Below, piece by piece: positions 78 to 7,459 of a stretch of 7,459 nt of DNA (the stretch's first letter is position 1; the number at the start of each line of letters is the position of its first letter). The notes under the pieces are model-generated. The model was not told where the DNA came from. It did no database searches and saw only the letters and a program-made list of their open reading frames with translations. The position numbers were made by a program, and so were the translations under genes. Source of the DNA: Chloroflexota bacterium (GTDB lineage: Bacteria; Chloroflexota; UBA5177; JANWHV01); assembly GCA_025450375.1 (NCBI GenBank), contig JANWHO010000066.1:1-7459 (forward strand), in the 5' to 3' direction.

Positions 78-644
78 TCACACGGGCGAGCCCCAACGGG
101 AGTACCACCGCTCCAGCTCCGGCTCGATGGGCAATTCGCGTTCCATCAAGGTTTTCAGGCGCAGCTCGAAGGCATTGTCGCGCGTCTGCCCTCCGGTGGG
201 CACCATGGGATAGAAAGTGCCGCGCTTATAGTTGTAGATCCAATAGACATTGCGCCCTTCTCCGGTGAACTTGAACACCGAGGAGAGTAATTGCTCGCCG
301 AAGCCGCGCGACTTCAACTCCTCGCTCATTAAGTGGATCGTGGTGACCAGATCCTCGAACTGCTCGGTCTGGAGGATGATCCATTGGTAGCCGTAGGTGT
401 CGGTCATCGTGCTCATGGTGGATTTCGTGTCGGCGGCCCGAATTTTGAGCAGGGCCTCGATATCCTGTTTGAGTTCCTCGAACCGGCCCACGTCGATTGC
501 CTTGAAACAGAGCGCGGCGGCGTTACTGGGTTCCAGATGCAGGGATGTCTGTAGGGTGATCACCGCCGTGGTCATGGCAAACAGGGCCTCGGTTTTGGAG
601 GCTACCGGTTTCGATGTCCCCAAGAGCCGATCGAGAAAACTCAT
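78..644 (-). CDS. pspAB: PspAB-like protein (PspA-associated), partner of HtpX
   Basis: This 188-residue soluble protein resembles the PspAB family, which is found next to htpX and assigned to the phage-shock/envelope-stress response; its biochemical role is not established. Visible features are a short amphipathic N-terminus (MSFLDRLLG), an Ala/Leu-rich helical region at about residues 18-70, and a conserved-looking aromatic core (YGYQWIIL at 84-91, VYWIYNYKRGTFYPM at 133-147). It ends with a charged ELPIEPELERWYSRWG segment at 170-185. There is no signal peptide or membrane helix. Its ATG overlaps the htpX stop codon as ATGA (641-644) and no strong ribosome binding site precedes it, so it is probably translated by coupling to htpX. 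The length suits the family. No pspA gene is in the window. The family call is from recognition of sequence and context, not a search. Confidence 0.8.
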   Translation of the reverse strand: MSFLDRLLGTSKPVASKTEALFAMTTAVITLQTSLHLEPSNAAALCFKAIDVGRFEELKQDIEALLKIRAADTKSTMSTMTDTYGYQWIILQTEQFEDLVTTIHLMSEELKSRGFGEQLLSSVFKFTGEGRNVYWIYNYKRGTFYPMVPTGGQTRDNAFELRLKTLMERELPIEPELERWYSRWGSPV

Positions 645-1546
645 CCGCGCGCCGCGTTCATATTCCGTTCCATCGCCTCGAGGCGGGCCAGACGGTGCTC
701 AAGGCTGGGATGGGTGCCGAATAACTCGCCTACCGATTGCTTCACATTCGGCACGATGAAGAAGGCGTTCATCGATTGCGCGGCCCGCAAGTCCGAGTTG
801 GGGATCCGCTGGATGGTGCCGCTAACCTTGAGCAAGGCCGACCGCATGGTGGAAGGCGAGCCGGTCAACAGGACCGATCCGCGATCCGCTGCGTACTCGC
901 GGTACCGCGAGAGGCTGCGCAAGAGGAAGAAGCTGATCGCCCAGACAGCCGCCGAGACCAGGAAGACGACCACGGCCGCCCCATTGTTGCTGTCGCGGTC
1001 GTCCTCGCCAAAGCCGAAACCGGTCCACATACCGATCTGCACGATAAACGAGGCCACGCTGGCGAACAGACTGGCGTAAGTCAGAACCATCATGTCGCGA
1101 TTCTTGATATGGGTCATTTCGTGACCCAACACCGACTCCAGTTCTTGGGGCTCCAGCAAGCGCAGCAGGCCCCGCGTGACCGCGATCACGGCGTGCTTGG
1201 GGCTCCGCCCGGTGGCGAAGGCGTTGGGCGTCCCCACCTCCATGATCGCCACCCGAGGCTTGGGCAGATCGGCGATCTGCGCCAGGCGCTCGATGATCGC
1301 GTGCAGACCCGGCTCCTCGGCGGCGGAAACCTCGCGGGCCCCCGTGCTTAGCAATACCAGCTTCTCGGAGACATAGTACTGAAACAGCACCATGCCGGCC
1401 CCTACCACCACCAGCAGCACAAGGCTCCCGGTGAACTTCCACAAAACTCCCAGGAATACGCTGTAGAGCAGCGCCAGCAGGAACAATGTGAATGCCATGC
1501 GCAGCGTGAGCTGCGTATCCCGCCCATACCAGCGTTGGCTAGCCAT
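641..1546 (-). CDS. htpX: HtpX-type M48 membrane zinc metalloprotease
   Basis: HtpX degrades misfolded or damaged inner-membrane proteins at the cytoplasmic face. This 301-residue protein has the full family layout. Two N-terminal transmembrane helices lie at about 15-36 and 40-58, followed by a PNAFATG segment (107-113). The zinc motif HEMTH is at 142-146 (H142 and H146 ligands, E143 catalytic), and a downstream REYAAD holds the likely third ligand E217. Further hydrophobic segments are at about 153-172 and 189-209. Length is close to the usual ~290 residues and no key residue is missing, so it should be active. The ATG at 1546 is preceded by AGAGGA nine bases upstream. It overlaps pspAB by four bases, so the two are co-transcribed and probably translationally coupled. 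The reading frame opposite encodes long open frames, but these are shadows caused by high GC. Confidence 0.95.
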   Translation of the reverse strand: MASQRWYGRDTQLTLRMAFTLFLLALLYSVFLGVLWKFTGSLVLLVVVGAGMVLFQYYVSEKLVLLSTGAREVSAAEEPGLHAIIERLAQIADLPKPRVAIMEVGTPNAFATGRSPKHAVIAVTRGLLRLLEPQELESVLGHEMTHIKNRDMMVLTYASLFASVASFIVQIGMWTGFGFGEDDRDSNNGAAVVVFLVSAAVWAISFFLLRSLSRYREYAADRGSVLLTGSPSTMRSALLKVSGTIQRIPNSDLRAAQSMNAFFIVPNVKQSVGELFGTHPSLEHRLARLEAMERNMNAARG

Positions 1547-1665: not shown

Positions 1666-2829
1666 TTACTCCGCCGAAGCCGCGTGGCCGCCGGTGCTGC
1701 TCGCGCGCGCGATCAGGCTAGGGGCGACCAACAGATGTCGTGGGTCTTGGGGGACACCACGAATTCTTTCGATCAAGAGATCGGTCACCGATCGGGCGAT
1801 CACGTCGATCTTCTGGTGGACCGAGGTCAGATCGAGGGCCTGCGCCACCGGCGTGTCGTCGTAGCCCGCCACCGCTATATCCTTCCCGATTAGGATGCCC
1901 GAACGCTCAAGGCACAATCTGACCCCAATCGCCCCGATGTCCGAGGCACAGATGATCGCCGTCGGACGCGGCACGCGGGACAGCAAATATTCGGCGGCCG
2001 TCGCGGCATGTGGTACGTCGTTCGGCGTGCGGGCCAGGAGATCCGGACGAGCATCGATCCCCCGCGCCCGAAGAGCCTCTTGATAGCCGCGCACACGGGC
2101 ATCACCGGCCACGATTCCTTCGAGCCAGCCCACCATGGCAATCTGAGTGTGACCTTGGGCCACCAAATGGTCCACCACCAGGCCAACTCCATGCTCCCCA
2201 TCATCATCGGCATAGGGAAAGTCCCAGTCGTCATTGGAGCGCCCGAAGCAGGCAAAGGGTATGTCGAGGTCAAGGAGACGCCGTATACGGGGGTCATGAT
2301 AGCTCGTATCGGAGAGCACGAATCCGTCGACCCGGCTGGTCCGGATCAAGTCAACATAGCTCTGTTCCTCCTGGGGCGCGGACTGCGCGAAGGTGAGGAC
2401 GTGGTAGCCATTGGACTCGGCCGCCTGCGCCACCTCGTAGAGGAAGCGATCGAGGACCGGATTCCGCTGTACTTCGTCCTGCACTCGGTGCCAGGCATAG
2501 CCGATCATGCGGGTCGTACTGGATTTGAGATTCCGCGCCGTGCTGTTTGGCCGATAGCCTAACGCCTGGATCGCCGCCCGGACCTTCCGGCGGGTGTCCA
2601 GTTTGATCAGGGAACTGTCGTTGATCACGTACGAGACGGTCGAAACCGACACCCCCGCCAGGGCCGCCACGTCACGAATCGTGATATTCAGCGCGTATTT
2701 GTGCTGAGCGGCCGCCCGGCGCACCTGATCGCCCGCGGCTTCATCTACTTCCGGCGAGTTATTCAGGGCCGCGTACGCGGTCAACAACGACACGCCGGCT
2801 TCCTCGGCAATAGACCGTAGACTCGACAT
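1666..2829 (-). CDS. LacI-family transcriptional regulator with two tandem HTH modules
   Basis: This 387-residue LacI/GalR-type regulator probably represses the divergent sugar-transport operon. Residues 49-101 form a standard LacI DNA-binding module: TIRDVAALAGVSVSTVS helix-turn-helix, then ALGYRPN, then a hinge helix ARNLKSS with the minor-groove leucine at L101. Residues 108-375 are the periplasmic-binding-protein-like sensor (MIGYAW, RVDGFVLSDT, QIAMVGW, AIICASDIGAIG, IAVAGYDDTPVAQALDLTSVHQ). What is unusual is that residues 4-48 are a second LacI-type module that aligns without gaps to 51-95, with 14 of 45 identical positions including AGVS, T, N, V-R-A, Y and N. The usual length is about 330-350, and the extra ~47 residues account for the excess. 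The ATG at 2829 has GAGGGAA six bases upstream and no start codon sits just before the second module, so the extension is likely real. The N-terminal copy has LL and A at the specificity positions and may bind DNA differently or not at all. Confidence 0.93.
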   Translation of the reverse strand: MSSLRSIAEEAGVSLLTAYAALNNSPEVDEAAGDQVRRAAAQHKYALNITIRDVAALAGVSVSTVSYVINDSSLIKLDTRRKVRAAIQALGYRPNSTARNLKSSTTRMIGYAWHRVQDEVQRNPVLDRFLYEVAQAAESNGYHVLTFAQSAPQEEQSYVDLIRTSRVDGFVLSDTSYHDPRIRRLLDLDIPFACFGRSNDDWDFPYADDDGEHGVGLVVDHLVAQGHTQIAMVGWLEGIVAGDARVRGYQEALRARGIDARPDLLARTPNDVPHAATAAEYLLSRVPRPTAIICASDIGAIGVRLCLERSGILIGKDIAVAGYDDTPVAQALDLTSVHQKIDVIARSVTDLLIERIRGVPQDPRHLLVAPSLIARASSTGGHAASAE

Positions 2830-2911: not shown

Positions 2912-2940
2912 TTGACGACGGCCAGACCATAGTGTAGCAT
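2912..2940 (+). promoter_or_regulatory. Sigma70-like promoter of the sugar-transport operon
   Basis: TTGACG at 2912-2917 (five of six matches to the -35 consensus) and TAGCAT at 2935-2940 (four of six to the -10) are separated by exactly 17 bases, the optimal spacing. Transcription would begin near 2947, leaving a leader of about 155 bases before the binding-protein gene. The first operator-like palindrome begins four bases after the -10, so a bound repressor would block the start site. The start site has not been mapped; this is inferred from motifs. Confidence 0.6.
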
Positions 2941-2963: not shown

Positions 2964-2977
2964 TTGTAACGTTGCAA
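2964..2977. promoter_or_regulatory. Operator-like palindrome O2 (LacI-family type)
   Basis: TTGTAACGTTGCAA differs from O1 at only one of 14 positions and is also symmetric at six of seven pairs. The flanking A (2963) and T (2978) extend the symmetry to 16 bp. Its centre is exactly 20 bp from that of O1, close to two helical turns, so proteins on the two sites would face nearly the same side of the DNA. It lies about 17-30 bases into the predicted transcript. Confidence 0.7.
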
Positions 2978-3103: not shown

Positions 3104-4507
3104 ATGACCGGTCCCAGCGAAACCACGAAGTCCCTCAGTCGTCGTTCCTTTGTTCTGAAGACCGCCGCCTCTGGCGCGGCGGTAGCCTGCGGCGCCGACC
3201 TGATCGGCGGCTTAGCTTCCGCCCACGCCGCGCCCAGGGCAGCGGCCTCCTCCGTCTCGGTGACCCTCAACGACATGCCGGCCCAGTCCGACAAAGTCAA
3301 CCTGGCATCGTTTCACGCCACCGTGGCCCGATTCGAGGCGGCTCATCCCGACATCAAGGTGATCGGCAAGACGGATACCTTTGATCCCACGACCTTCTAC
3401 GCGCATTACGCGGTCGGCAACGTTGAGGATTCCTATAAGGTGTACTTCACCGATGTCCAGCACCTGATCCAGATTGGATACGCGCGGGACATCAGCGCCT
3501 GGATGAAGAACTGGAAATGGACATCGAGCATCCAGCCCAGCGTCCGGCAACTGATCAGCGACGCCTCGGGGAAGATCTATGGCTTCCCGGTCGATGCGTA
3601 CGCGCTCGGCCTGTCGTACAGCAAACGGTATTTCAAGGCCGCCGGCCTTGATCCGAACAGCCCCCCGACTACCTGGGACCAATTCCGCGCCTATGCCAAG
3701 CAACTCAGCAAGGCGGGGATCGGGCGCTACGGTTTCGCTCCGCTCAGCCTCTCCAATACCGGCGGCTGGCATTTAACGGCGATGATGTACAGCTTCGGCG
3801 GCCAGCCGGAGATCGTCCAGGGTGGGAAGACGCTCGCCAATGTCAATTCCGCGGCCTGTGTGAAGCCGCTGCAACTGCTCTGGGATATGCGCTGGCGCGA
3901 CCATTCAATCGGCCCCAAGGAAATGGGCTACAACGACAATACGGCCGCCCTGGCCAATGGGTCCATCGCCATGGGCATCCTGGCCGGTGATCAGCCGCGC
4001 TTCTTCAAGACGCAATATCAGGCCGACATCAACAATTTCATGCTGGCCGGCTTGCCCCAGGGCGGCGGCAACGCCACCCTGATGGGTGGAGATGTGCAAT
4101 TGGTCAAGCCGGGCTCCTCGTCCGCCGTGATCAACGCGGCCCTGGAGTTCGCCGAGTATCGCTATTGGGATCTGACCTCCTGGGCGGCCAGCGACAAGGG
4201 CCAGCTCTCGAGCGGCGGCGTGGTCGGAATCCCCGCCAATATCGTCATTGGCGGATCCCTGAAGGCGGCTATTGCGGCGATCGACGCCAGATACACCAAC
4301 GTGCCCGCCGCGAACTACAAGCTGTTCGCCGACTCTTGCAACACCTTGAAACTGACGCCCGAGCCGCGCGTGCAGGCCCAGAAGTTGTATTCGCTGCTCG
4401 ATCCCTGCGTGCAGGCCGTCCTCAGCAGCCAGTCCTCGAATCCGCAGGCCCTGCTTGACGACGCGAACAAGAAGTTCCAGGCAGTTCTGGACGCCGCCAA
4501 CGGCTAG
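3104..4507 (+). CDS. CUT1 ABC transporter sugar-binding protein, Tat-exported
   Basis: This 467-residue extracellular solute-binding protein (family 1, MalE-like) captures an oligosaccharide and delivers it to the two permeases encoded just downstream. The N-terminus has a twin-arginine signal: SRRSFVLK at 12-19, then an Ala-rich hydrophobic stretch and a signal-peptidase I site AHA|AP after residue 42. C29 in AVAC is a poor lipobox, so a lipoprotein is possible but less likely. The mature part shows family features: FEAAHPDIKV near the start, the SGKIYGFPVDAYALGLSYSKRYFKAAGLDPNSPPTTWDQF segment, SFGGQPEI, and AALANGSIAMGILAGDQPRF. Its length is slightly above the common 420-450. It is first in the transport operon, behind the two operator-like sites. 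A small CCGG-GAA-CCGG stem-loop (4517-4527) follows the gene and might trim or stabilise its mRNA. The sugar cannot be identified from sequence alone. Confidence 0.92.
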   Translation: MTGPSETTKSLSRRSFVLKTAASGAAVACGADLIGGLASAHAAPRAAASSVSVTLNDMPAQSDKVNLASFHATVARFEAAHPDIKVIGKTDTFDPTTFYAHYAVGNVEDSYKVYFTDVQHLIQIGYARDISAWMKNWKWTSSIQPSVRQLISDASGKIYGFPVDAYALGLSYSKRYFKAAGLDPNSPPTTWDQFRAYAKQLSKAGIGRYGFAPLSLSNTGGWHLTAMMYSFGGQPEIVQGGKTLANVNSAACVKPLQLLWDMRWRDHSIGPKEMGYNDNTAALANGSIAMGILAGDQPRFFKTQYQADINNFMLAGLPQGGGNATLMGGDVQLVKPGSSSAVINAALEFAEYRYWDLTSWAASDKGQLSSGGVVGIPANIVIGGSLKAAIAAIDARYTNVPAANYKLFADSCNTLKLTPEPRVQAQKLYSLLDPCVQAVLSSQSSNPQALLDDANKKFQAVLDAANG

Positions 4508-4547: not shown

Positions 4548-5522
4548 TTGGCGGTGTCGCAAGGGTGGAAGGCGCGTACGGCGCCCAGTCACATGGCGCG
4601 CGCTACCATCGGCCGGCACGCGCGGCGAGCGTTCGCCCACCATGCCGCCGCCTACCTCTTCTTGCTGCCGGCGATCGTGGTCTTTGCCCTGTTCGCCTGG
4701 TACCCAATCTTTAAGGGGTTCGTCCTCAGTTTTGAACATTACCAGAACAACAATGTCGGTTTGCCCGCCCACTGGGTAGGGCTGGACAATTATCGGGCTC
4801 TGTTCGCCGATCCATCCCTGAACTTCGGCGCCGTGTGGCTCAACACGCTGCAATTCACCCTCTACGCGCTGGCCCTCGGCTACATCATTCCCCTCAGCCT
4901 GGCCCTGGCGATCAATGAGATTCGCCAGGGCCGAGCCTTGTTCCGAATGGCCTTCTACATGCCGGTGATTGTTCCCACCATCGTCAGCATGTTCATCTGG
5001 CAGAAAGCGCTCTATGATCCGGACCCCAATGGGTTTCTCAACGAGGTGCTCGGCTGGCTACACATTGGTCCCCAGCCCTGGATCGCCGATCAAAGCCAGG
5101 CCATGGTCTGTCTGGTGGTCGCGGCGACCTGGGCCGCCGCCGGCGGCACCATGCTGATCTACCTTGCCGCCTTGCAGGGCGTCCCGGCGCACCTCTACGA
5201 GGCGGCCGAGATGGACGGGGCAGGCTTATGGCGGCGCCTGTACCACATTACCCTGCCGCGGATTCGCGTCATCATGCTGATCATGCTGTTATTGCAGATC
5301 ATCGCCACCATGCAGATCTTCACCGAGCCGTGGTCGCTCACGGGCGGCGGCCCGGTCGGAGCCACCACCACCGTGATGGTGGCGCTCTATAACACGGCCT
5401 TCGGCAGTAACGGCGGGGCCCAGGATTTTGGCCAGGCCAGCGCCATTGGGGTGATGCTGTTCTGCGCTCTGGGTCTCTTTTCCGGACTGTACTTCTTCGT
5501 GATCCGTCGCTTCGCCCAGTAG
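4548..5522 (+). CDS. MalF-like sugar ABC transporter permease (CUT1)
   Basis: This is one of two membrane subunits forming the translocation channel of the sugar importer. The 324-residue protein has about six membrane helices, at roughly 33-60, 98-122, 134-152, 185-208, 240-258 and 297-319. The cytoplasmic EAA loop that contacts the ATPase is intact at 218-237 (EAAEMDGAGLWRRLYHITLP). The segments AWYPIFKGFVLSF and FRMAFYMPVIVP, and the SLTGGGP turn before the last helices, are typical of UgpA/MalF-type CUT1 permeases. A basic stretch of ~30 residues precedes the first helix. The start is TTG, chosen for its AGAGGAG site; ATG at 4593 would remove 15 residues. It lies 40 bases after the binding-protein gene and 17 bases before the second permease. 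The weaker start codon fits the lower amount of permease needed. Confidence 0.93.
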   Translation: MAVSQGWKARTAPSHMARATIGRHARRAFAHHAAAYLFLLPAIVVFALFAWYPIFKGFVLSFEHYQNNNVGLPAHWVGLDNYRALFADPSLNFGAVWLNTLQFTLYALALGYIIPLSLALAINEIRQGRALFRMAFYMPVIVPTIVSMFIWQKALYDPDPNGFLNEVLGWLHIGPQPWIADQSQAMVCLVVAATWAAAGGTMLIYLAALQGVPAHLYEAAEMDGAGLWRRLYHITLPRIRVIMLIMLLLQIIATMQIFTEPWSLTGGGPVGATTTVMVALYNTAFGSNGGAQDFGQASAIGVMLFCALGLFSGLYFFVIRRFAQ

Positions 5523-5539: not shown

Positions 5540-6535
5540 ATGTCGAGAGTGCTATCCTCGGCCGCGCGACCGTCCCATCCGCGGGTAAGGCCGCGATTGC
5601 GCTGGGATCGGCGCGGCACGCGATCCGAGGATCGGACATTGCTGTCCCCGCTGGATCGAGGACGCCTCTCCGTCCGGATCGGCTACTGGCTCATTTTCTG
5701 CTGTCTGGTGCTGGTGGCGATCGTCGCGGTCGTCCCGATGTACTGGCTCTTTACCGACGGGGTGAAGTCCTCGGTCGAGATCAGCTCCCTTCCTCCCACC
5801 TGGCTGCCCCAACACCCGGACTGGCATGGGCTCCTCGACAATAATTTCACGGCCAGTTGGACCTTGCTCAATCTTGGTCACTATCTGAATAACACCCTGA
5901 TCCTGGTCGGCGGCTCATTGGTGTTGCAGGTGCTGGTCTCGGTGACCGCCGCCTTCTCCCTGGCCAAACTGAAGCCGGCCCTCGGAAGGGTCTGGCTTGG
6001 TTTCTTTTTCGCCACCCTCCTGGTGCCGATGGTCACCTACCTCATTCCGCAGTATCTCAATATTTCCAGCCTACCGCTGATCCATTGGAATATTGGGAAC
6101 GGGAACTGGATCTATCTGGGGGTGCTGTTACCCGAGGCGGCGAATGCCTTCAATCTTTATATCCTCAAGAGCTTTTTTGACGACATTCCGGATGAAATCA
6201 TAGCGGCGGCCCGGATCGACGGAGCCAATTCCCTCGATCTGCTGGTCCGCATCGTGATTCCTATGTCGAGGGCCGCCCTGGCGGTGGTGGCGATTCTGAC
6301 CATAATGGCCTCCTGGAAGGACTTCCTCTGGCCCTACGTGGTGATGGCCGGCGATCAGGATCATCAGCCGCTGATGGTCTATCTCTTCTATCAATGGCAG
6401 AACCGGAGCCTTGGCACCCCCGACAATGTACTCTTCGCCTCTTTTGCCCTGGTAAGCATCCCGCCGATCATCCTATTCCTGATCTTCCAGCGGCAGATCA
6501 TCCGCGGCATCTCGTTGACTGGCTTGACCGGCTGA
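5540..6535 (+). CDS. MalG-like sugar ABC transporter permease (CUT1)
   Basis: This is the second channel subunit, pairing with the MalF-like protein. The 331-residue protein has about six membrane helices, starting with WLIFCCLVLVAIVAVVPMYW at 50-69. The SLPPTWLPQHPDW segment after helix 1 is typical of MalG-type subunits, as is the NTL...V motif at 118-133. The EAA loop is present as AAARIDGANSLDLLVRIVIP at 222-241, and the C-terminus is FQRQIIRGISLTGLTG. The ~45 residues before helix 1 are rich in Arg, Ser and Pro and are longer than usual; most relatives are about 275-300 residues. The purine-rich GAGAGAGGG abuts the ATG at 5540. GTG at 5549, three codons in, has better spacing, so the first residues are uncertain. 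The gene lies 17 bases after malF-like and about 10 bases before the next gene, so it is part of one operon. No ATPase gene is found alongside. Confidence 0.92.
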   Translation: MSRVLSSAARPSHPRVRPRLRWDRRGTRSEDRTLLSPLDRGRLSVRIGYWLIFCCLVLVAIVAVVPMYWLFTDGVKSSVEISSLPPTWLPQHPDWHGLLDNNFTASWTLLNLGHYLNNTLILVGGSLVLQVLVSVTAAFSLAKLKPALGRVWLGFFFATLLVPMVTYLIPQYLNISSLPLIHWNIGNGNWIYLGVLLPEAANAFNLYILKSFFDDIPDEIIAAARIDGANSLDLLVRIVIPMSRAALAVVAILTIMASWKDFLWPYVVMAGDQDHQPLMVYLFYQWQNRSLGTPDNVLFASFALVSIPPIILFLIFQRQIIRGISLTGLTG

Positions 6536-6540: not shown

Positions 6541-6547
6541 ATGAATG

Positions 6548-7459
6548 ATGATCGATTTGTGCCAAGCGGTACTGGGGCGCTTCGTGGTGGTTGGTGCTAT
6601 CGTCGTATCCGGCATGTTCCTCTCGCCTTCGGCGGCGCCCGTTTCCCTGGCCCATGCCGCGCCCATTCAGGACTCGACCGGGAGCCAGACGCGGTATGGC
6701 GCCGAGGACGCCTGGCTTATCGGAGGACTTACGGTGGCCGCGGGCGATCCGCATTCCTCCGGCGGCTACGTGACCGGATTCACCAAGCCGGGGGCCGAGG
6801 CTGTGTTCGCGGTGGAGGTTCCGGCGGACGGCGCGTACCACGTCACTCTGCACTATGCCAATGGCGGCCAATCGTCGGTGCCGCTGGTCCTTACCGCCAA
6901 TGGCCTTATGTTGGCACGGACAGTCCTGGCCCCAACGGGCGGATGGGCGGTCTGGGCGAGCCAGACCGACAATCTCTCCCTCCGCGCTGGCCTCAACACC
7001 CTGGCCTTTTCCTCCGTAGGCGGCGGGGGCAACCTGAACCTCGACTATCTTCAAGTGAGCGGGGGGAGCAGGCCGGCGGCGCTCGGAGCCACGGTGCCCT
7101 ACGTGGAGTACGAGGCCGAGAACGCCCGCACCAACGGGGCGGTCATTGGTCCGGACCGGACCTTCGGTGATCTGGCGGCCGAGGCATCGGGACGGAAAGC
7201 GGTAACCCTCCGGAAGGTGGGCCAGTTTGTCGAATTTACCCTGCGCCAGCCGGCCAACGGGATGGTGGTCCGCTATAGTATCCCGGACTCCCCCAAGGGC
7301 ACTGGGATCACGGCGCCCCTGGGCCTCTACGTGAATGGGCGATTCCAGCGGGCCCTGACTCTCACCTCGAAGTATACGTGGCTGTATGGATCGTACCCCT
7401 TCACCAACAATCCCGCCGGCCTCGGGGGACACCACTTCTATGATGAGATCCATCTCCTC
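6548..7459 (+). CDS. Secreted protein with CBM35-like modules, probable glycan-active enzyme (partial, 3' end cut by window)
   Basis: The frame is open from 6548 to the last base: 304 codons with no stop. A Sec signal peptide is seen, with hydrophobic FVVVGAIVVSGMFL at 12-25 and cleavage at AHA|AP after residue 37. Residues 50-171 look like a CBM35-type module: YGAEDA, SSGGYVTGF, VPADGAYHVTLHYANG, a GGWAVWAS segment, LRAGLNTLAF, and NLNLDYLQVS at the end. From residue 184 a second galactose-binding-like segment starts (PYVEYEAENARTNG, AAEASGRKAVTL, FTNNPAGLGGHHFYDEIHLL). I recall such segments preceding right-handed beta-helix glycan-active domains in large secreted enzymes, but any catalytic part lies beyond the window. 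It begins ~12 bases after the permease gene and so belongs to the transport operon; a role in binding or degrading the imported glycan's polymer is inferred. Start at 6545 (one extra Met) is possible. Longer open frames on both strands here are shadows. Confidence 0.85.
   Translation, partial: MIDLCQAVLGRFVVVGAIVVSGMFLSPSAAPVSLAHAAPIQDSTGSQTRYGAEDAWLIGGLTVAAGDPHSSGGYVTGFTKPGAEAVFAVEVPADGAYHVTLHYANGGQSSVPLVLTANGLMLARTVLAPTGGWAVWASQTDNLSLRAGLNTLAFSSVGGGGNLNLDYLQVSGGSRPAALGATVPYVEYEAENARTNGAVIGPDRTFGDLAAEASGRKAVTLRKVGQFVEFTLRQPANGMVVRYSIPDSPKGTGITAPLGLYVNGRFQRALTLTSKYTWLYGSYPFTNNPAGLGGHHFYDEIHLL

Follow-up and report, generated by a model that had tools for sequence, protein, structure and literature searches.

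A LacI-type regulator of Chloroflexota with a second, conserved HTH module that lacks the DNA-contact pattern

Repressors of the LacI/GalR family, including LacI, PurR, CcpA and RbsR, bring together a helix-turn-helix (HTH) module, a hinge, an effector-binding core and CG-centred palindromic operators. The regulator described here has the HTH and the core, a segment in the position of the hinge and predicted operators of this kind, and carries an extra LacI-type HTH at the place where such proteins start. It is encoded in a 7,459-nucleotide stretch of Chloroflexota DNA (contig JANWHO010000066.1 of assembly GCA_025450375.1), called the window below. Two HTHs per monomer are known from the AraC-family regulators MarA and Rob, and one of the two HTHs of Rob is not a base reader. 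However, both HTHs of MarA and Rob belong to one AraC-type domain, whereas here one of the two is a duplicated LacI-type module. Domain databases may well contain this tandem architecture without comment. All parts of the regulator are of the LacI family; the tandem architecture itself was not found in the literature searched, neither in titles and the beginnings of abstracts nor in the portions covered of PMC4052901 and PMC3870299. LacI regulators, as those portions of PMC4052901 describe them, have one HTH and one effector domain.

Pfam places the LacI-type HTH (PF00356) on two stretches of the window regulator with 90.8 bits, and also finds a periplasmic-binding-protein-like effector core (Table 1). 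Module 1 scanned alone still passes the cut-off of 27, with 34.8 bits. The two modules, at residues 4-48 and 51-95 as the sequence-only reading had proposed, lie 47 residues apart and are joined directly without a linker. At this offset 14 of 47 positions match; other offsets from 40 to 55 give 0-6 matches and the shuffled mean is 3.8. Module 2 aligns gap-free to CcpA and to LacI headpieces. Residue 1 of CcpA pairs with residue 47 of the window protein, and therefore the extra module sits just ahead of the normal start. A single HTH per subunit is the usual LacI/GalR architecture, though not a defining one in Pfam; the window protein and the 141 rows of the alignment discussed below have two.

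The AlphaFold2 model of the window protein has two confident three-helix modules. Residues 1-100 modelled alone reach a pTM of 0.77 which, taken without an error map, suggests a defined joint between them. In structural comparison, module 1 of the model matches the HTH of SghR with an rmsd of 1.0 over 47 residues, and module 2 fits onto CcpA, PurR and LacI. Among the Foldseek / VIA matches listed, no solved structure spans both modules. The hinge segment (residues 96-104) is present behind module 2 and is of low confidence in the monomer model, as expected without DNA. Module 1 has no hinge of its own.

Table 1. Features of the window (positions include the stop codon for the regulator gene; operators and promoter are predictions).
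Feature	Position	Strand	Basis
Tandem-HTH LacI-type regulator, 387 aa	1666..2829	-	ORF, Pfam LacI + Peripla_BP_3/1, homologues
Effector-binding core, residues 105-387	1669..2517	-	
Hinge segment, residues 96-104	2518..2544	-	low pLDDT in monomer model; follows module 2 as in LacI
Module 2, residues 51-95, canonical LacI HTH, inferred operator reader	2545..2679	-	
Module 1, residues 4-48, conserved LacI-type HTH without DNA-contact pattern	2686..2820	-	Pfam, conservation, charge, contact positions, omega, models
Promoter-like TTGACG-17-TAGCAT, divergent ABC operon	2912..2940	+	consensus scan: 1 found vs 0.1 expected
Operator 1 (predicted), TTGTAACGTTTCAA	2944..2957	.	TTGNAACGTTNCAA pattern match
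Operator 2 (predicted), TTGTAACGTTGCAA, exactly 20 bp from operator 1	2964..2977	.	TTGNAACGTTNCAA pattern match
Solute-binding protein, sugar ABC transporter, first gene of presumed target operon	3104..4507	+	SBP_bac_1
ABC permease 1	4548..5522	+	BPD_transp_1
ABC permease 2	5540..6535	+	BPD_transp_1
Alpha-1,3-glucanase with CBM6/35, fourth gene of presumed target operon, runs off the window	6545..7459	+	CatAgl_D1 147.9 bits, CBM_6 42.4 bits

How widespread is the tandem form? A homologue search scored 8000 candidates, 1172 of which passed. Among the best 120 of these 1172, a complete module 1 is present in 110. Together with 31 proteins from genome loci, these 110 form an alignment of 141 rows, and the offset is exactly 47 in 137 of them, with 1-2 extra residues in the other four. 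The 137 rows correspond to 133 distinct sequences, and counts on distinct rows agree with those given below. The ten homologues without a complete module 1 begin inside module 1 (P0014, P0025, P0026, P0030, P0104), in its last helix (P0022, P0028) or inside or after module 2 (P0032, P0036, P0084). P0022 (353 aa) may have truly lost most of module 1, or its start may be wrong. The longest contigs of P0007 and P0022, two tandem-family homologues, are both 17356 long, and the two may be neighbours. A further candidate for loss, L118, was discarded as there are Ns at the junction. Nine other module 1s were scanned with the Pfam model; seven score above the cut-off and two, at 17.6 and 25.4 bits, stay under it. 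When the deepest tandem branch supplied the query, in the form of its double module, 10 of 118 newly listed proteins have the double module and the others cover 44-62% of the query. The break between tandem and other proteins is sharp in this search.

All eight listed tandem-family proteins with an organism-named source are from Chloroflexota. The record of one tandem locus (L001) gives Bacteroidetes as its label, but the genome was assigned to the same order as a Chloroflexi genome. Tandem proteins occur in 4 of 400 genomes drawn from the phylum (E 1e-120, at most four candidates scored per genome), in 4 of 82 genomes of one order and in 28 of 154 genomes of another, 25 of them complete and three cut by Ns or contig ends. 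A second search of 400 phylum genomes, with P0014 as query, gave no window-type gene, returning only G084, G286 and G314, all already in the set. The tandem gene was also absent at E 1e-135 from seven genomes in the class of the genome that is closest by its M48 protein, and had no match in viral contigs. The M48 peptidase of the window is 85% identical to one in G059, a genome without the tandem regulator at E 1e-135. In the window it adjoins PspAB (PspA-associated protein B, 247 bits), at 78-644 (-) and 641-1546 (-), downstream of the regulator.

A tree of module 2 and core with 76 rows (45 tandem, 31 single-module) puts the tandem proteins in one clade on one side of one branch, with support 100/99 and all 31 single-module rows outside. 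The 45 had been picked as tandem, and losses are tested by the 31 single-module rows only. The single-module sisters (L004-L026, mostly Anaerolineae) are close in the core (38-46% identity), most have the reader helix SIATVSYV(L/I)N, and by eye none has a module 1 in frame ahead of it. Another relative, the LacI-family structure 3BBL from Chloroflexus aggregans, probably comes from a protein with one module, judging from its numbering, in which residue 62 pairs with window residue 105. Sorted by the module 2 reader helix, the tandem proteins divide into subfamilies a (31 distinct rows, including the window), b (49), c (27), d (13) and e (13).

Pooled over 15 pairs of relatives, which share sequences, omega comes to 0.162 in module 1, compared with 0.065 in module 2 and 0.070 in hinge and core. 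Purifying selection acts on module 1, which is nevertheless less constrained than the rest of the protein. Since module 1 is both present across homologues and under selection, the idea that it is an artefact of a wrong start codon was rejected. The sequence-only reading would have been undone by orthologues that all start at module 2, or by an unconserved N-terminal copy; domain search and selection analysis, the checks it had suggested, found neither.

The surface of module 1 is another matter. In LacI numbering, anchored by alignment to the LacI headpieces and CcpA, positions 17, 18, 21, 25 and 31 are those we take to contact DNA. Position 21 is Ser in all 137 module 2s, whereas in module 1 it is Tyr in 119 rows, Phe in 15 and Ser in none. 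Asn25 is kept in 135 of 137 module 2s, but in only 15 module 1s, having been lost in 122. Positions 17 and 18 are both hydrophobic in 95 of 137 module 1s and in no module 2, and an acidic residue occupies position 31 in 107 module 1s and, again, in no module 2. Single modules were represented by 32 same-length sequences out of 48 caught, with a pattern that allows only S/Y at 21 and N/H at 25 and so biases both columns; none of the 32 has the hydrophobic pair and six have the acidic residue. Module 1 has a mean charge of -1.37 (below zero in 62% of rows), where module 2 has +2.17 and the single modules have +1.12. The fold core is kept in module 1 (L4, A8, A11, V13, L22, V36, A40, Y45). The unusual recognition-helix residues noted from the window alone (L15, L16, Y19, A20) are real. 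The window's module 1 retains an Asn at the Asn25 position, and so loss of the contact pattern is less complete there than in the family.

The coevolution signal between the two modules arises in part from differences between subfamilies and does not settle the role of module 1. Within subfamilies the pairs 16-57 and 16-93 are unremarkable (286 and 75 of 1000 shuffles reach them). The pairs 46-57, 43-78, 26-88 and 27-88 do stand out (0, 0, 0 and 1 of 1000), but they are not relied on because there are only about 65 effective sequences.

What might the regulator control? Its neighbour is a divergent operon of sugar ABC transporter genes and an alpha-1,3-glucanase (Table 1). In view of these genes, the target is probably the uptake and breakdown of alpha-1,3-glucan oligosaccharides. 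The window's solute-binding protein and both permeases are matched near 26 of 34 tandem loci (E 1e-8, 24-45% identity), and the solute-binding protein has no match beside any of 23 single-module loci. The glucanase is matched at two of the 34 tandem loci (L149 and L151, both subfamily c). Between the regulator and the operon lie two matches to TTGNAACGTTNCAA with at most one mismatch, where 0.01 are expected in the window and none of 200 shuffles has two. The first is centred 10 bp after the promoter-like site.

CG-centred LacI-type palindromes are found near many other tandem genes, and predicted sites of this type are present in the window pair, in subfamily d (14 of 16 genomes) and in c and e. 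The test is strong for subfamily d and weaker in the others. In d, the pattern TGAGACGTCTCA occurs in 15 of 16 genomes and in 14 of them exactly once, in front of the tandem gene, which makes the pairing of site and protein unusually clean. Of the other two genomes, G512 has two sites on other contigs and G527 has none; in both, the start of the tandem gene is at the end of a contig. The reversed control is found in none of the 16. By eye, a -10-like box of the divergent transporter operon immediately precedes the d operator. For subfamily c, TTGAAMCGNTTCAA was sought in eight genomes, four of which are subfamily b hosts. In G084, G286 and G424 a single pair exists, with spacings of 134, 146 and 157 bp, and it lies at the tandem locus; nothing else in these genomes matches. 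In G314 one pair (185 bp) is at the tandem locus and another elsewhere. As for the b hosts, the pattern is missing from G001 and G486, and in G003 and G583 its sites lie away from the tandem gene. The reversed control gives one site each in G424, G003 and G001.

Subfamily b loci L147 and L001 have weaker palindromes before the transporter operon. In subfamily e, 23 sites in 10 genomes compare with 10 for the reversed control; 15 of the 23 lie no more than about 5 kb from the tandem gene, at least one in every genome. No operator was found at L152, where the contig begins inside the solute-binding-protein gene. The same operator type is present near the gene in 5 of 23 single-module loci (L004, L006, L008, L019, L024), with none near the gene in the other 18. 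Two TTGAACCGCTTCAA sites about 1080 bp apart were also seen in two genomes (G003:C27:26064 and 27143; G583:C67:38457 and 39538). In G003 a single-module LacI gene (L094) lies between them, an arrangement that hints at another case of self-regulation.

We read the window protein, with a probability of roughly 0.6, as a LacI-family repressor of a sugar operon in which module 2 and the hinge read the operator and module 1 is a protein-protein or structural element and not a sequence reader. For module 1 such a role is most likely because of its retention, its fixed joint, its hydrophobic former recognition face and its negative charge, and of the three roles offered by the sequence-only reading (new specificity, DNA clamping, protein contact) the last fits best. 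In this scheme a repressor would have gained, at an early date, a second LacI-type HTH ahead of its original start. Reading of the CG-centred palindromes would fall to module 2 and the hinge behind it. The two predicted operators come directly after the -10-like box of the divergent operon, and so protein bound there would keep the promoter closed until the core takes up a sugar; family and layout both point to this repression and sugar response. Module 1, folded and selected, would have ceased to read sequence, with its near-invariant Tyr/Phe set on a mostly hydrophobic former recognition face. Its contacts might stiffen or orient module 2, or hold neighbouring dimers together. A more specific version, which we regard as tentative and less likely than not, is that this face joins neighbouring dimers on paired operators, such as those 20 bp apart in the window and 134-185 bp apart in subfamily c, around the Tyr. 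In LacI, a C-terminal helix does this oligomer-joining job.

Perhaps module 1 is instead a non-specific DNA clamp, lying on the backbone beside each half-site and adding affinity without sequence preference. Rob, whose second HTH adds affinity without reading bases, would be the model. A folded HTH fused without a linker next to the reader is what such a clamp might look like, Lys or Arg at position 5 (130 of 137 module 1s) and Thr17 (106 of 137) would suit it, and it would leave little flanking motif, as is observed. An acidic, hydrophobic HTH can still touch the DNA backbone. However, the negative mean charge and the acidic residue at 31 make a poor fit, and a clamp, possible as it is, seems rather unlikely.

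A second alternative is that module 1 reads half-sites of its own, which would make the operator extended or paired, the two window palindromes then being one composite site. Their 20 bp spacing, the paired sites of subfamily c and the second, slightly degenerate copies 55-56 bp off in three of 14 subfamily d loci (L132, L136, L138) are in its favour, and so is a value of 0.74 bit at 10 bp in subfamily c, the highest in the flanks at 10-34 bp (8 related sites). Yet the other 11 d loci have one palindrome only, and spacings vary. Information in the flanks at 10-34 bp averages 0.21 bit per position in c, 0.20 in d and 0.04 in the reduced set of e, compared with 0.07 in the single-module control. 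Nearer in, at 8-9 bp, subfamily d reaches about 1 bit, and the promoter accounts for some of its signal. No clear added symmetric half-site appears in the flanks of these three subfamilies. A doubled operator as a rule was accordingly rejected, with most d loci single and flanks poor in information. In addition, single-module sisters share the operator type, and the contact pattern is lost in module 1. Several sites occur anyway in about 20% of LacI-regulated operons, according to the portions covered of PMC4052901. An extra specific reader is thus unlikely, more so than a clamp, and the drift to a new specificity once proposed for module 1 is disfavoured. The dimer would carry four modules, as had been pointed out; that holds as a count of folds but is not supported as one of DNA readers.

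Least probable is a relic, a duplication that is being lost and has been kept only because a deletion would disturb the gene start. The omega of module 1, about 2.5 times that of module 2, would agree with this, as would P0022 if it really has lost most of the module, but an omega of 0.16, the near-invariant new Tyr/Phe19 (134 of 137), the fixed offset and the single clade all speak against decay.

LacI-family repressors are a textbook model of gene control, with 'one module per subunit'. If module 1 is indeed a protein-contact or structural element, the tandem proteins, as an old and well-populated clade with a conserved second module whose reading residues are gone, would be a natural experiment on the reuse of a DNA-binding domain. 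They also yield predicted operators for regulators from a group whose members are largely uncultured.
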